Part shown: positions 929-42,954 of the stretch, piece by piece | How positions within the stretch are numbered: position 1 is the first letter of the stretch | How the letters are laid out: the number at the start of each line of letters is the position of its first letter | Source of the DNA: a virus | IMG/VR virus record: IMGVR_UViG_3300021401_000015 | Location: 1 to 43,644 of that record | Strand: one strand, 5' to 3' | DNA length: 43,644 nt | Made by a program: the position numbers and the translations under genes | The notes under the pieces: model-generated | The model's database searches: none | What the model saw: only the letters and a program-made list of their open reading frames with translations | Told to the model about the DNA's origin: nothing

Positions 929-1819
929 ATGCGTTTCAATCGCCAATTTTCCAATGTCCTCGACACGAACCAACTACGTCAACTTGTCCCGTCCGCATAC
1001 GCTACTCAACCGCATGAGTCTAGGTCCTCTCGCTACACCTATATCCCAACGTCTGAAGTTATTGATGGTTTGGTTGCCGAAGGTTTCGCACCATTCAAGG
1101 CGGTCCAGTCTAAGTCACGTATCGAAGGCAAAACGGAGTTCACGAAGCACATGATACGGTTTCGGCACCCTGACGCAATGCAGAGGGCCGGTGTCGGTGA
1201 CAACATTCCAGAGGTCGTCTTAATCAATTCGCATGACGGCACGTCCGCATACAAACTTTTGTCTGGAATCTTTCGGATTATTTGCACAAACGGAATGATT
1301 GTTTGCGACCGCAATATGGGTGAACTTTCCATACACCACAAAGGCAACATTGTTAACCAAGTTATCGAAGGGTCTTTCGAGATAATCGGACAATCGAACC
1401 GGGCACTCGAAACCATTGACACCTGGAGCGGTCTGCAACTTTCGTCCGGTGAGCAAACGGCATTTGCCGAAGCTGCACACTCTCTCCGGTTCGCAGATTC
1501 GGACGGCAAAATTGACACTCCCATAACTGCATCTCAACTGCTAACTCCACGCCGGATAGAGGATCGTGCATCTGACGGTCGCGGGTTCGGTTGGACGCGT
1601 CCGGCACCCGATTTATACCGGACGCTAAACGTAGTGCAGGAGAATGTCATTCGCGGGGGTCTGTCGGCGCGTAACCCTGGAGATTCACGTTCGCGCGGTC
1701 GCATGGTGACTACGCGGGAGGTTCGCGGTATAGATCAAGACGTTCGTCTGAACCGTGCGCTTTGGCAATTGGCTGAGAAGATGGCAGAGCTTAAGGGTGT
1801 CGCACAAATAGCGGCATAA
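929..1819 (+). CDS. DUF932 family protein
   Basis: A 296-residue protein that I recognise as DUF932 (phage/plasmid-related protein). Its core pattern is present: a central KLLSGIFRIICTNGM segment (about 109-123), then CDRNMGE, an IEGSFEI-like stretch and a C-terminal RxLNVVQENVIRGG near 230-243. DUF932 proteins occur on plasmids and phages; their biochemical role is not established. TAGGAG (915-920) gives a good ribosome site for the ATG. The gene stands alone, with its own leader hairpin upstream and a strong stem-loop downstream, so it looks monocistronic. Confidence 0.85.
   Translation: MRFNRQFSNVLDTNQLRQLVPSAYATQPHESRSSRYTYIPTSEVIDGLVAEGFAPFKAVQSKSRIEGKTEFTKHMIRFRHPDAMQRAGVGDNIPEVVLINSHDGTSAYKLLSGIFRIICTNGMIVCDRNMGELSIHHKGNIVNQVIEGSFEIIGQSNRALETIDTWSGLQLSSGEQTAFAEAAHSLRFADSDGKIDTPITASQLLTPRRIEDRASDGRGFGWTRPAPDLYRTLNVVQENVIRGGLSARNPGDSRSRGRMVTTREVRGIDQDVRLNRALWQLAEKMAELKGVAQIAA
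1523..1531 (+). repeat. 9-mer variant ATAACTGCA
   Basis: Variant copy of the dispersed word, inside the DUF932 coding region. Confidence 0.55.
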
Positions 1820-1826
1820 GCAGAGG

Positions 1827-1860
1827 ACACCCTGCGAGGTCTGTTAGACTCGCCGGGTGT
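1827..1860 (+). terminator. strong stem-loop after the DUF932 gene
   Basis: ACACCC (1827-1832) pairs with GGGTGT (1855-1860). Inside it GCGAG pairs with CTCGC and TCT with AGA around a 3-base loop. It starts eight bases after the TAA stop. No T-run follows, so it may be an RNA stability or processing element rather than a classical terminator. Confidence 0.55.
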
Positions 1861-1896
1861 AATGCGCTGGCGGTCCGTTCCAAGTCGGATGCATTA

Positions 1897-4460: not shown

Positions 4461-4991
4461 TTATGGTCGTCCGGGCGACTCCGGCGCGTCTACGGGCGTT
4501 TTCAGCTTGTCCCATGATCGGGGGGCGCGTGAGGTCGTAAAGCCTCCATGTTTCATCTCTGCATCGCGGACACTGACTGCCTTCTCAATTGTCTTGTAGT
4601 CTCCGGCATGGTAGCGGCCTCCATACAACCTAGTCGGATCGCCATAGAGGACGACCGAATACCTTTTCTTAAACTCGCTCCAGAAAACTCCCGGCTCCTC
4701 GGTCGGCTCCATCGGGATGTGCTTCTTTTTGTAGTTCTGCGAACCTGTCAGGATTTGTAGCTCTGTGCGGCGATAGTCGCGGCGGTTGCCGTGCTTGTGG
4801 TCTACCTTCACGGCGGGGTCGGTCACTCCCATGATGAGGCGGTGCATTCCCACAATCTTGCCGGGGCTGCTGTAGGTACAGGCATACCCCTGATTGTCAA
4901 ACCAGTATTTTTTACTCAGCCATTCAAAATCGGCTTCGTCCACCATCACGGTGTAGTCGCCGTCTTTGCACTTGACTGTGATTTCCGCCAT
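4461..4991 (-). CDS. HNH endonuclease (homing-type)
   Basis: A 176-residue free-standing HNH endonuclease of the kind common in phages. MHRLI (49-53) is followed by the core VDHKHGNRRDYRRTELQ (63-79) with Asp64-His65, then QNYKKK (85-90). The C-terminal part (about 100-160) looks like the DNA-binding region usual in this family. The N-terminal VDEADFEWLS matches VDEADFEMLS in the HNH protein at 36244-36759, so the two are related. It cuts DNA to favour its own spread, by family knowledge. It sits at the convergent end of both arms, a typical insertion place. A variant 9-mer overlaps its start codon. Confidence 0.85.
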   Translation of the reverse strand: MAEITVKCKDGDYTVMVDEADFEWLSKKYWFDNQGYACTYSSPGKIVGMHRLIMGVTDPAVKVDHKHGNRRDYRRTELQILTGSQNYKKKHIPMEPTEEPGVFWSEFKKRYSVVLYGDPTRLYGGRYHAGDYKTIEKAVSVRDAEMKHGGFTTSRAPRSWDKLKTPVDAPESPGRP

Positions 4992-5010: not shown

Positions 5011-5583
5011 CTAGGCTCCATCGGTTAGCTCGAAATGAACTAATTGGACTAGCGGGGCCGGGGCGGTGATCGGGTCCACTTCAGGGGCGAAGCTGGCTCC
5101 GATGGCGAAGAGACAAACCGGGTCTAAGTTCTTCACCAAACCTAGCAGGGTGTTGTCTAGATTTTGGGCGGGTACGGGGTTGTCCGCGATGTTGCTTGAT
5201 GTCTCTCCCTGCATCTTCCCGCTGGCAAGGTAGAACATCATCCGGGTCCCTTGCAGCATCCACTGGGTTGATAGCGGGTCTTGGGGTCTGCCTACAGGCT
5301 CTCCGGGGGTCGTCGCCATCGCTACCCATTGGGTCGGGTCTAGTCCTGGCTTGGGCATGTTCGGCGCGTTGGGGAGTCCGAACAATACCAGCGATAGCCT
5401 TCCGGCCTGGTTCGGCGTGATGAATCCGGTAGCTGTCACATTGAACAGGCGCAACTGAAAATCGGACGCTCCCGATATGGTCAGGATGCACGGCGCATTG
5501 GCGTTGTCGGCGGCTGGGATGATCTGAACGTCTTCGGTGAGAGTCAGGGCGGCGGCGGGGCGTGACTTCGTGACGATTGACAT
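5011..5583 (-). CDS. unknown protein, possibly virion-associated, 190 aa
   Basis: A 190-residue protein rich in Ala, Pro, Thr and Asn with predicted beta-structure and no Cys-rich or catalytic motif. Its composition resembles phage surface or decoration proteins, but I cannot assign a family. The ATG has AGGAG nearby (AGGAG then nine bases). It is cut off from the rest of the leftward arm by the small rightward unit at 5650-5922 and two terminator-like hairpins, so it must have its own promoter. Confidence 0.75.
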   Translation of the reverse strand: MSIVTKSRPAAALTLTEDVQIIPAADNANAPCILTISGASDFQLRLFNVTATGFITPNQAGRLSLVLFGLPNAPNMPKPGLDPTQWVAMATTPGEPVGRPQDPLSTQWMLQGTRMMFYLASGKMQGETSSNIADNPVPAQNLDNTLLGLVKNLDPVCLFAIGASFAPEVDPITAPAPLVQLVHFELTDGA

Positions 5584-5652
5584 TGGGGGCGGCTCCTGGG
5601 TGGGATGGCCGATTAGGGGCGCGGTTAGAGTCTACTCCCTTCCCTTTTTGTC

Positions 5653-5661
5653 TGCTAGAAT
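5653..5661 (+). promoter_or_regulatory. extended -10 promoter of the small rightward unit
   Basis: TG at 5653-5654, one base, then TAGAAT (5656-5661) make an extended -10 box that does not need a good -35, and none is seen. The dispersed 9-mer (5660-5668) overlaps the -10 box and the expected start site, the geometry of a repressor operator. Confidence 0.55.
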
Positions 5662-5668
5662 AACTACA
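5660..5668 (+). repeat. dispersed 9-mer ATAACTACA overlapping a promoter
   Basis: Exact copy starting inside the -10 box TAGAAT. This is the clearest case in the window of the word placed as an operator. Confidence 0.85.
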
Positions 5669-5728
5669 GTCGCGATTCCAGAACTTTCCTTTTGGGTTGC
5701 CGGAGTCTTCACCTAGCCCCTCCTAAGA

Positions 5729-5745
5729 CGTTGCCTCTGGCAACG
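5729..5745 (+). ncRNA. leader hairpin of small rightward transcript
   Basis: CGTTGCC (5729-5735) pairs perfectly with GGCAACG (5739-5745) around a 3-base loop, in the untranslated part between the promoter at 5656 and the ORF at 5807. Confidence 0.5.
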
Positions 5746-5756
5746 ATCAAAGAGAA

Positions 5757-5782
5757 AGGCCCGGTGCATGAACACCGGGCCT
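5757..5782 (-). terminator. 10-bp hairpin, leftward terminator or leader structure
   Basis: AGGCCCGGTG (5757-5766) pairs perfectly with CACCGGGCCT (5773-5782). On the minus strand it is followed by TTTCTCTTT, so it can end leftward transcripts from the accessory block. On the plus strand it lies in the leader of the 25-codon ORF, just before the ribosome site. Confidence 0.6.
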
Positions 5783-5806
5783 CCTCTGGAAAGGTGGTAC
5801 ACAACG

Positions 5807-5884
5807 ATGATTGAAATCACAATCAAAGTTGACCGTAACACGCTGGCTGCGATAGTGGCCGCGCTTTACCTGCTGCTTAGGTAA
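5807..5884 (+). CDS. 25-residue peptide in a rightward unit
   Basis: A 25-codon ORF with ATG at 5807 and TAA at 5882-5884. GGAAAGGTGG (5788-5797) is a convincing ribosome site. The peptide begins MIEITIKVDRN and ends in a hydrophobic stretch, LAAIVAALYLLL, which could enter a membrane. It lies between a promoter-like -10 box, two leader hairpins and a terminator, opposite to the surrounding genes. The complete transcription signals make it likely to be expressed; the function is unknown. The RNA itself might be the active product. Confidence 0.55.
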   Translation: MIEITIKVDRNTLAAIVAALYLLLR

Positions 5885-5901
5885 TAGTACGGCACGGAGA
5901 A

Positions 5902-5922
5902 AGCCCCCGCAAGGGGGTTTTT
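5902..5922 (+). terminator. rho-independent terminator
   Basis: CCCCC (5904-5908), loop GCAA, GGGGG (5913-5917), then TTTTT CTCTT. It ends the small rightward unit. The reverse complement also has a short T-run, so it may work in both directions. Confidence 0.75.
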
Positions 5923-5932
5923 CTCTTGGGGG

Positions 5933-6166
5933 CTAAAACCACCACTCCACGATTTGCGGTTCGTCGCCTTCGATGCGCTCGATGCGCTGCTTCCCTGCCG
6001 GGACCTTGCGGCGTAGCTCTGCGATGGAGTTGGCGGTGTAGAAGTGTTCCGTGGGCCTGACTTCGTTGGGTCCTCCGTTCTTGCCTCCTTTGATGTGGTG
6101 TTCCCGCATGACGAACTGGTCCGGAAAGTCCTTGGGCCGCTCGTAGATGACCCATATTTTTATCAT
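5933..6166 (-). CDS. hypothetical protein, 77 aa
   Basis: A 77-residue protein starting MIKIWVIYERP and ending EWWF. No domain is recognised; length and style match small accessory proteins of tailed phages. The ATG overlaps the stop of the upstream gene by four bases (ATGA). A longer ORF in another frame (5877-6155) is its shadow. It is the last gene of the accessory block and is followed by the bidirectional terminator. Confidence 0.75.
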   Translation of the reverse strand: MIKIWVIYERPKDFPDQFVMREHHIKGGKNGGPNEVRPTEHFYTANSIAELRRKVPAGKQRIERIEGDEPQIVEWWF

Positions 6167-34104: not shown

Positions 34105-34230
34105 GGTCCGAGGTCCTCGTCAAAATTCAACGGGTTCGGGTCGGAGTTAACTCACGGCCACTTCCGCAACATTCGTAACATCAAGGCTTAGGGCTGATGT
34201 GTTCTTTTGGTAACGTACACCAGTTCCGGG

Positions 34231-34260
34231 ATAATATGCCCTTTGTAACTTTCTATTCAA
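34231..34260 (-). promoter_or_regulatory. promoter for the portal/capsid operon
   Basis: On the minus strand TTGAAT (34260-34255), an 18-base spacer and TATTAT (34236-34231) make a good sigma70-type promoter. It lies in the 173-base gap before the portal gene and leaves a leader of about 125 bases. Confidence 0.6.
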
Positions 34261-41658: not shown

Positions 41659-41909
41659 TTCGCACACCTGAACAGTATTGGGAAACGCTTCTACGCGCTT
41701 TTCCCCCTGGCATACCAGATTCAAAGATAGTTGCCTTTCGCCGCACCTTTTTCAGCGGCATGAGCGCGATGGTTTCGCTTATGGCGGAACTACGAGAGTC
41801 ACCCTTGGGGGAGTCGGAAAAACAGGCTCTCTATCGGAGATTTGCCGAGTATATTCATCGAAATGACGGTCTTGAGGAGGATTCGAGGACGAATGGGCGC
41901 AATAACTGA
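41655..41909 (+). CDS. hypothetical helical protein, 84 aa
   Basis: An 84-residue protein starting MIRTPEQYWETLLRAFPPGI at the ATG 41655, which overlaps the previous TGA (ATGA). Helical throughout (VAFRRTFFSGMSAMVSLMAEL, EKQALYRRFAEYIHR). It overlaps repA by 17 bases, so repA translation may be coupled to it. Such coupling is common for plasmid rep genes. Confidence 0.7.
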   Translation: MIRTPEQYWETLLRAFPPGIPDSKIVAFRRTFFSGMSAMVSLMAELRESPLGESEKQALYRRFAEYIHRNDGLEEDSRTNGRNN

Positions 41910-42954
41910 AAAGGCGAAATCACCGTTCTCTCTTGGCGATGAAGCAATGGCCGAAATAATCGAACAAGTGTGGGGCCGCGATGTTCTCGATAATCCCCGC
42001 CTTGGTTTCAATCACCTGATTCAAACGTCGTGTTTTTTGCCGAGTAAAGACCCCGGCGAGATACCAATGTGGCAGCGCAAAGATGGCGGTCTGACAATGA
42101 CGATGACTCGGGGTCCCGCCATGAATCCGGTTACAAGGGAGGCGGAGCTACAGGGGTATCCTCATGGGCTGTGGCCGCGTCGGTTTCACAGCATCATCAA
42201 CGCTGAGATTTTGCGGAGCCGTTCACGAACGATCTACTGCGGTCGAGGTTTCTGCGAGTTTTTCAGGGATAAGATGTCTGTGCGGATGACGGGCGGGGCG
42301 AACGGTAATATCCGACACATGAAGAATCAGTTTTCGCGGCTATCGGCGGCGAATCTAGTGTTCTTCATGCACAACGACAAGCGGATTGTGATGCTGAGTC
42401 CAGCGCGGATGATTGAGGCAACGGATATGTGGCTGGACGGCGATGAGGAGCACTGGCCGTCATTTCTCCTAGCGTCACAAGCCTATTGTGACGACCTGTT
42501 TCAGAATGCCGTTCCCATCGACCTGCAAGCTGCTTCGCGCATCAAGGGGTCGATGGAATACGACTTCTACACTTGGGTCACTCGCCGCGTCTACAGCCTC
42601 GTCGTGAGCGGTCAGCGGAGCGTGGCGATCACCTGGGGGTCGCTGAAGTATGCGATGGGCTACAGCTACTCGCGACTAGACCATTTCCAGTCGGAAATTC
42701 GGGCCATCATTCGGCATCTGAAGGCCGAGGTCTACCGTGATCTGAATATCCGCGAGAGTCAAACGGGTTTGGTTCTCTACGCGGGGCCGCTGGCGGTTCC
42801 TGAGCGCAAACTGTGGGCTGGTTACACGGAGCCGAAGCAGATACCGATGTTCGCGGATGACCGCCGCTTCGATGACCCTTTTCCACAGGAGGAGGAGAGA
42901 AGGGTGGTAGTCAAAACCATCACCATCACAAAACGCCAAGTTGTTCAAAAATAA
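41893..42954 (+). CDS. repA: plasmid RepA replication initiator
   Basis: A 353-residue protein matching the plasmid RepA family (PF04796 type). Key blocks: YPHGLWPRRFHSIINAEILRSRSRTIYCGRGFCEFFRD (89-126), MTGGANGNIRHMKNQFSRLSAANLVF (132-157), PVPID-like AVPIDLQAASRIKGSMEYDFYTWVTRRVYSL (206-236), and ITWGSLKYAMGYSYSRLDHFQSEI (246-269). It binds iterons and opens the origin. I start at 41893 (MGAITEKAKS); the ATG 51 bases earlier would enlarge the overlap. Four iterons follow directly. In a phage genome it is strong evidence for plasmid-style replication. Confidence 0.85.
   Translation: MGAITEKAKSPFSLGDEAMAEIIEQVWGRDVLDNPRLGFNHLIQTSCFLPSKDPGEIPMWQRKDGGLTMTMTRGPAMNPVTREAELQGYPHGLWPRRFHSIINAEILRSRSRTIYCGRGFCEFFRDKMSVRMTGGANGNIRHMKNQFSRLSAANLVFFMHNDKRIVMLSPARMIEATDMWLDGDEEHWPSFLLASQAYCDDLFQNAVPIDLQAASRIKGSMEYDFYTWVTRRVYSLVVSGQRSVAITWGSLKYAMGYSYSRLDHFQSEIRAIIRHLKAEVYRDLNIRESQTGLVLYAGPLAVPERKLWAGYTEPKQIPMFADDRRFDDPFPQEEERRVVVKTITITKRQVVQK
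42879..42887 (+). promoter_or_regulatory. DnaA-box-like site
   Basis: TTTTCCACA, one mismatch from TTATCCACA, inside the 3' end of repA. Confidence 0.45.

Follow-up and report, generated by a model that had tools for sequence, protein, structure and literature searches.

What is a short rightward unit doing between genes that run leftward? The window, the whole stretch of DNA analyzed here, is the 43,644-base virus record IMGVR_UViG_3300021401_000015 of IMG/VR, and it holds such a unit in a 349-base gap between a 190-aa gene (5011-5583) and a 77-aa gene (5933-6166), both leftward. An earlier sequence-only reading had described a self-contained, counter-oriented unit with a -10, a repeated 9-mer, two hairpins, a ribosome site, a 25-codon open reading frame (ORF) and a terminator, and had suggested, with the small immunity RNAs of P1 and P4 in view, that it could make a regulatory RNA or peptide switched by the 9-mer's binding protein. 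Every listed element is present in the window sequence, and positions 5653-5926 (+) are an autonomous unit made up of a promoter-like -10, a structured leader, the 25-codon ORF and a terminator. It runs against its neighbors in the window, and its likely +1, from sequence and hexamer spacing, is 5668, as had been proposed. The observation is confirmed as real and beyond chance. Its interpretation is partly supported overall, and the better reading is an mRNA that silences itself and encodes a peptide, in the manner of type I toxins.

The unit begins with a -10-like element, TGC-TAGAAT (TGCTAGAAT, 5653-5661, +), which was read in the sequence and from which the +1 at 5668 is predicted; the 9-mer ATAACTACA (5660-5668, +) overlaps both. 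A TAGAAT, TACAAT or TATACT hexamer lies 6 nt 5' of the assigned +1 in all seven distinct units described below, the +1 of each unit having been assigned from hexamer spacing. No convincing -35 emerged from an E. coli-type scan of the units' upstream strings (p 0.017-0.42). A simple consensus scan listed neither the unit's promoter nor its terminator; we think it missed the terminator because the T-run was counted into the stem. The predicted transcript covers the whole unit (5668-5926, +; ~258 nt), on the grounds of homologous units and of the fold z score. It would carry a ribosome site, GGAAAGGUGG (5788-5797, +), read in the sequence, the translated 25-aa ORF MIEITIKVDRNTLAAIVAALYLLLR, which ends in a stop codon (5807-5884, +), and a GC terminator hairpin with a T-run, seen in sequence and fold (5896-5926, +). 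A GC hairpin stands directly 3' of the stop in all six folded units, with differing stem sequences, and is not evident in L106. We found no near-identical second copy of the stretch with the unit for an assembly check. As a separate observation, the start of the HNH gene (4972-4985) and that of the 25-aa ORF (5813-5826) have 13 of 14 bases in common in the same reading sense (EITVK versus EITIK), which may be duplication or chance.

Does the unit occur elsewhere? Direct DNA searches of phage and plasmid records gave no match to it, and neither the 190-aa neighbor nor the exact hairpin, used as probes, found relatives. Related phage contigs were reached via the 227-aa neighbor and the large terminase (for which genome_contigs gave no relative), and contigs L020, L014 and L015 carry homologous units. 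A pattern search added L040 and L043, with five of the six stretches of that pattern being units; L044 was discarded as a chance hairpin (19.3 bits). A leader covariance model (R1), run on 37 records, finds the unit in seven at 106 bits at least and newly added L063; G005, at 13.2 bits, was not counted. L106 and L107, which have an identical unit (85 bits), came from a second pattern. Altogether there are seven distinct sequences in nine phage contigs, window included, with L014/L041, identical to L015/L042, counted once. The leader is kept in all seven (85-137 bits). Each record has one copy, lower matches being the opposite strand of the same place or scoring at most 13.2 bits. The last viral pattern returned 44 stretches, namely six known unit loci and 38 others that included no unit, and in genome_contigs (84,980 prokaryote species) the hairpin pattern returned 14 stretches, none a unit by the model.

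These units occupy two kinds of place. Five of the seven (L015/L014, L043, L040, L063 and L106/L107) lie 3' of the terminase gene and 5' of a portal-like gene; terminase and portal genes were aligned for L107, and for the other four the portal gene was judged by its leader and its start. The window and L020 have the unit flanked by the 77-aa and 190-aa genes, with its orientation reversed from one to the other; in L020's record, G002, it shares a strand with both neighbors. Because homologous units are found at two gene locations and in both orientations, the unit is, judging from the compared contigs, a moving cassette that does not belong to the leftward operon. We also discarded the idea of an attenuator for the operon that follows, since the window copy points away from its neighbors. 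Could the gap simply hold a terminator set for the leftward operon plus a chance ORF? The 10-bp hairpin is indeed terminator-like on the minus strand, and the consensus scan lists it as such, yet the leader and ORF start are kept even though the cassette is co-oriented with its neighbors in six of the seven distinct units, and we find this explanation scarcely credible. At the corresponding place, L018 and L019 have other rightward ORFs. Downstream of 10675, L019 carries another rightward unit at the cassette site, which ends in a 19-codon ORF (MIDLLILMFGLGGTHLGSS) and a strong terminator. The place seen in L019, the window and L020 is a site for small accessory units.

The sequence-only reading also held that the unit combines a structured RNA with a real small ORF, and this stands up well: RNA 5666-5926 has a z of -6.7, with none of 200 shuffles as stable (z -5.9 for 5668-5926), and other phages have homologous units. 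All seven transcripts are more stable than their dinucleotide shuffles (z -5.2 to -9.5, 0 of 100 shuffles each), L106 having entered this test as its first 200 nt. When folded singly, all six full transcripts follow a common plan, which runs in order through H1, P1, P3 or a competing helix, P4, P5, a further hairpin late in the ORF, towards its 3' end, and lastly the terminator. L106 folds likewise, though it was found without use of H1 or P1.

Helix H1 joins the 5' end (GCGCAGCYAG-like) to ORF codons ~13-17 in five of the six folds and is absent in L043. In the MFE structure of the full window transcript, its 5' arm (5669-5681, +) consists of GUCGCG (5669-5674) and CCAG (5678-5681) and pairs with 5843-5853. 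Even with as many as 6 extra nt in front of the assigned start in the folded sequences, H1 starts at -1 to +2 in five of the six. We paired each 5' arm computationally with every ORF arm, and the true assignment ranked 16 of 5040 for the seven units, 4 of 720 in a six-unit version, 8 of 720 once L043 is left out, and 3 of 120 when L063 is dropped as well. In P1, the anti-ribosome-site CUUUCC (5684-5689, +) pairs with GGAAAG (5788-5793) at a probability of 0.93-0.94 in the window; 97.2% of cells are paired across units, with a C-G to U-A change in L020 and a weak helix in L015. P3, found by folding, is a 7-bp hairpin, CGUUGCC-UCU-GGCAACG (5729-5745, +), with a U-A to C-G change in L015. The first GUUGCCGG (5696-5703, +) is an alternative partner of its 3' arm (5737-5744): the resulting helix pairs in 94.3% of cells and is favored over the local P3 hairpin in four of six folds (0.26 versus 0.74 in the window). 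P4, also from the fold, is the 10-bp GGCCCGGUG hairpin plus an AGAG/CUCU extension (5751-5787, +; 10-bp stem-loop 5757-5782), and one of its pairs changes from G-C to A-U in two of the six. The fold further gives P5, a start-codon hairpin (5794-5841, +), which has similar counterparts in the other five folds. In a model-based alignment of six leaders, which leans towards its own model's structure, 94.8% of cells pair, 5 of 29 pairs are changed on both sides, and the covariation score exceeds those of 500 of 500 shuffles; slid versions pair at only 33-51%. An alternative helix set pairs at 96.0%, with its score reached by 2 of 500 shuffles.

What would this structure do to translation? In the full RNA, the ribosome site is mostly paired, with a mean unpaired probability of 0.14-0.32 (0.14 in the window, over 12 nt from 5788), and in some units it is so as soon as transcription has passed the start codon (0.23 in the window, 0.02 in L020, 0.42 in L015). 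Taking 10-25 nt off the 5' end opens it, from 0.11 to 0.41 in the window, from 0.12 to 0.57 in L020 and from 0.38 to 0.80 in L043. The start codon is about equally paired before and after such cutting, so in these models 5' cutting is a plausible but incomplete trigger.

Is the product of interest the RNA or the peptide? In six of the seven distinct units, the peptide is hydrophobic and 25-30 aa long, and its best 14-residue stretch has a mean hydropathy of 1.8-2.1; ORF frame, start and small size are likewise kept in six of seven. With L043 excluded as unalignable, pN/pS is 0.37-0.79 in all ten pairs of the five alignable ORFs, values that are indicative only, as RNA constraint acts on the same bases. 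Third codon positions differ most, with a tie with first positions in one pair. Loss of the ORF and hairpins in relatives had been set beforehand as the check on the sequence-only reading; both are kept in six distinct relatives, with the hydrophobic end missing from L106/L107, so this check favored that reading. Together, the covariation and codon-use tests support, at the level of sequence, both an RNA structure and an ORF. The RNA is the better kept part across the units compared, since L043 has the leader with an unalignable peptide (MMILVISSAAVKAFSKALLIAWVVYLRRKR), and L106, which begins MTIRLRIEIDLTTLAAL and then continues as unrelated sequence, has like L107 lost the hydrophobic end and kept the leader. 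One may therefore ask whether the unit is a regulatory RNA in its own right, its structured leader working on a host target and its peptide secondary. A leader present in all seven units, next to a peptide that cannot be aligned in L043 and that a fusion has cut short in L106/L107, fits this idea, as does the retention of two competing leader folds. However, the ORF constraint just described, including pN/pS below 1 in every pair, and a structure built around the ribosome site and start codon argue against it, and we found no above-chance target within the phage. On balance, we consider a regulatory RNA rather unlikely.

No database family claims the unit. None of six peptides matched Pfam, PHROGs or NCBIfam, and Rfam gave no match of the unit at its cut-offs and no known riboswitch. 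A Moco match was at chance level (16.2 bits, cut-off 36), and an RNAI match (28.4 bits, cut-off 47) was dropped, being absent in the five other units scanned. These results bear on another explanation, in which the product is a non-toxic small membrane peptide under translational control, serving for example superinfection exclusion or lysis timing, with the leader switched by a ligand, a protein or temperature. The membrane-like peptide, the bistable leader and an accessory site that has other rightward ORFs in L018 and L019 would all suit it. Against it stand the lack of a known riboswitch at the Rfam cut-offs and, in our judgment, the pairing of the 5' end with the ORF, which resembles a silenced finished mRNA more than a classic riboswitch; we would be somewhat surprised if it were correct.

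The 9-mer at the promoter was part of the sequence-only interpretation. ATAACTACA is the commonest 9-mer of the window (21 copies) and of G002 (18) and is abundant in G008 (19), G022 (13) and G005 (12). G012 does not contain it and has 9 copies of GTAACTACA and 12 of GTAGCTGCA; G025 has GTAACTACA 9 times. In the window it is scattered on both strands, with ~8 of 21 sites intergenic by hand count, above the intergenic share of the sequence, and from this distribution it may be a scattered operator. Mycobacteriophage stoperators offer a parallel. The exact 9-mer is at the promoter in the window and L020 and the variant GTAACTACA in L043, three of the seven units in total, and it is at or near the promoter in three of the four nearly complete carriers; the upstream strings of L015, L040, L063 and L106 have none there. 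A protein that binds the 9-mer could control the unit in some genomes; such control does not belong to the cassette as a constant feature. P4 CI and P1 C4 immunity RNAs are small structured phage RNAs that pair with a phage transcript. Our unit is also a small structured phage RNA; unlike them, it shows no above-chance pairing with a phage transcript. Its longest perfect complement to other window transcripts is 11 nt, a length reached by 85 of 100 shuffles, which average 11.4 (exact matches only). The P1/P4-like proposal is thus not supported. In favor of an immunity RNA or peptide under the control of the 9-mer-binding protein, the window, L020 and L043 have the 9-mer, or the variant of their genome, at the promoter. 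Against this explanation, four units lack the 9-mer there and complementarity to phage transcripts does not exceed chance, and we regard it as very unlikely.

What kind of phage carries the cassette? The window encodes a RepA_C replication protein at 41842-42954 (+), and RepA_C is over the cut-off in 7 of 15 records: the four nearly complete carriers G000, G002, G012 and G025, together with G011, whose unit is that of G012, and two records without a unit, G008 and G009. It was not found in G003, G005, G022, G031, G033, G015, G017 or G018, none of which has the unit. A plasmid-like state of the phage is possible from its gene content. Among database portals, the best match comes from Tunturiibacter phage Tunturi_3 (37% identity, 83% query coverage); Tunturiibacter we take to be Acidobacteriota, so the host is probably a member of this phylum.

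Other elements of these genomes deserve mention. The gap before the portal gene has its own conserved leader, CGGAAGTGGCC...CCCGAACCCGTT (window 34105-34260, -), which is also found in L046, L048, L049, L050, L053, L054, L057, L058, L062, L063 and L064, and is preceded in several records by a promoter-like TTGCAN-17-TATNAT. It has no Rfam match at cut-off in the window and the six loci scanned. Late transcription may start here, from a promoter followed by a structured leader. A Type-P5 twister ribozyme lies directly 3' of the DUF932 gene (window 1819-1889, +; 37.9 bits against an Rfam cut-off of 37.6) and is stronger in L020 (13968-14039, -; 51.8 bits). Finally, GGGTGCAAACCCTCAAACC, a small hairpin with a tail, has five copies in the gaps upstream of rightward genes (141-163, 877-899, 1893-1915, 2674-2696 and 2940-2962).

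Conservation, the common fold, selection on the ORF and relocation were all computed here, and they suggest a self-silenced mRNA for a small membrane peptide that acts like a type I toxin mRNA, a reading for which we see the case as evenly balanced. In this model, a mobile accessory cassette of the phage group would be transcribed into a ~258-nt mRNA for a peptide of 25-30 aa with a putative short hydrophobic helix. The finished mRNA would silence itself in vivo: its first nucleotides would pair with ORF codons ~13-17, the next six (CUUUCC) would block the ribosome site, the start codon would be held in a hairpin, and the terminator hairpin would close the 3' end. The duplicated GUUGCC would allow two competing leader folds, possibly folding intermediates. 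Translation would require processing that removes the 5' end, or its melting. Type I toxin mRNAs behave likewise, from which we infer a peptide that acts on the membrane with toxin-like effect and has a role in phage maintenance or cell lysis.

It is tempting to go further and propose a new phage-borne, type I-like toxin gene family, probably in Acidobacteriota phages with a plasmid-type replication protein, in which pairing of the 5' end into its own coding sequence and a two-state leader would silence the mRNA until the 5' end is cut, and in which the cassette would hop between the gap behind the terminase and the accessory site as an addiction or lysis module. We put this forward tentatively, as a possibility that we doubt in its full form. 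If true, RNA-silenced peptide toxins would extend to a phage group and probably a host phylum for which we found none described. We found no paper in the open-licence literature on type I toxin-antitoxin systems in Acidobacteria; before coming to its own Cyanobacteria, the relevant passage of PMC12390103 mentions Proteobacteria, Firmicutes and Tenericutes and no other phyla. Nor did we find one on this cassette in open-licence PubMed Central literature, which is weak evidence of absence. It would also be a case of a phage that carries, behind its terminase gene, a movable and complete package for a self-silenced mRNA, and the compensating changes among the seven natural variants allow the silencing model to be tested directly.

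How does the unit compare with known systems? Type I toxins are usually under 60 aa and hydrophobic, with a membrane helix, in the relevant part of PMC8309996. A small (under 60 aa), hydrophobic peptide is encoded by six of the seven distinct units, L106 being the exception, and the ribosome site is hidden by the mRNA fold by prediction. Because no consistent antisense promoter is found on the opposite strand of the seven units (p 0.03-1.00, at no common place), we do not class the unit among type I toxin-antitoxin systems; an antisense RNA encoded in trans is possible. TisB, ZorO and DinQ type toxin mRNAs are 5'-processed, and the unit's probable need for 5' processing is similar. The peptide also resembles these toxins in size and hydrophobicity (toxin traits as given in part of PMC8309996); their antitoxin RNAs, unlike anything seen here, are separate genes, and they share no Pfam, NCBIfam or Rfam similarity with the unit.

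Hok proteins, at about 50 aa, are longer than the unit's peptide. The hok/sok systems, including the prophage-borne hokW-sokW, are alike in having a membrane peptide and a self-silenced mRNA and in being carried on plasmids and phages (in the passages concerned of PMC8621323 and PMC6733600), and hokW aids the release of its phage (the same part of PMC8621323). In contrast to the unit, they have an antisense Sok RNA, and no sequence similarity between the two was found. AapA/IsoA of Helicobacter is likewise a short mRNA for a small peptide toxin, with an inert full-length form, a ribosome site hidden by a long-distance interaction, and metastable hairpins. The finished AapA3 mRNA is inert through that long-distance interaction, and its 3'-trimmed form is translated, AapA being activated by nuclease trimming (relevant sections of PMC6733600). 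An antisense RNA is known for AapA from the same sections, and none was found for the unit. The ends also differ. AapA has its 5' end paired with its 3' end, and trimming takes place at the latter (same sections of PMC6733600); in the unit, the predicted partner of the 5' end is the ORF, and the anti-ribosome-site is close to that 5' end, which makes 5' trimming the expected trigger.
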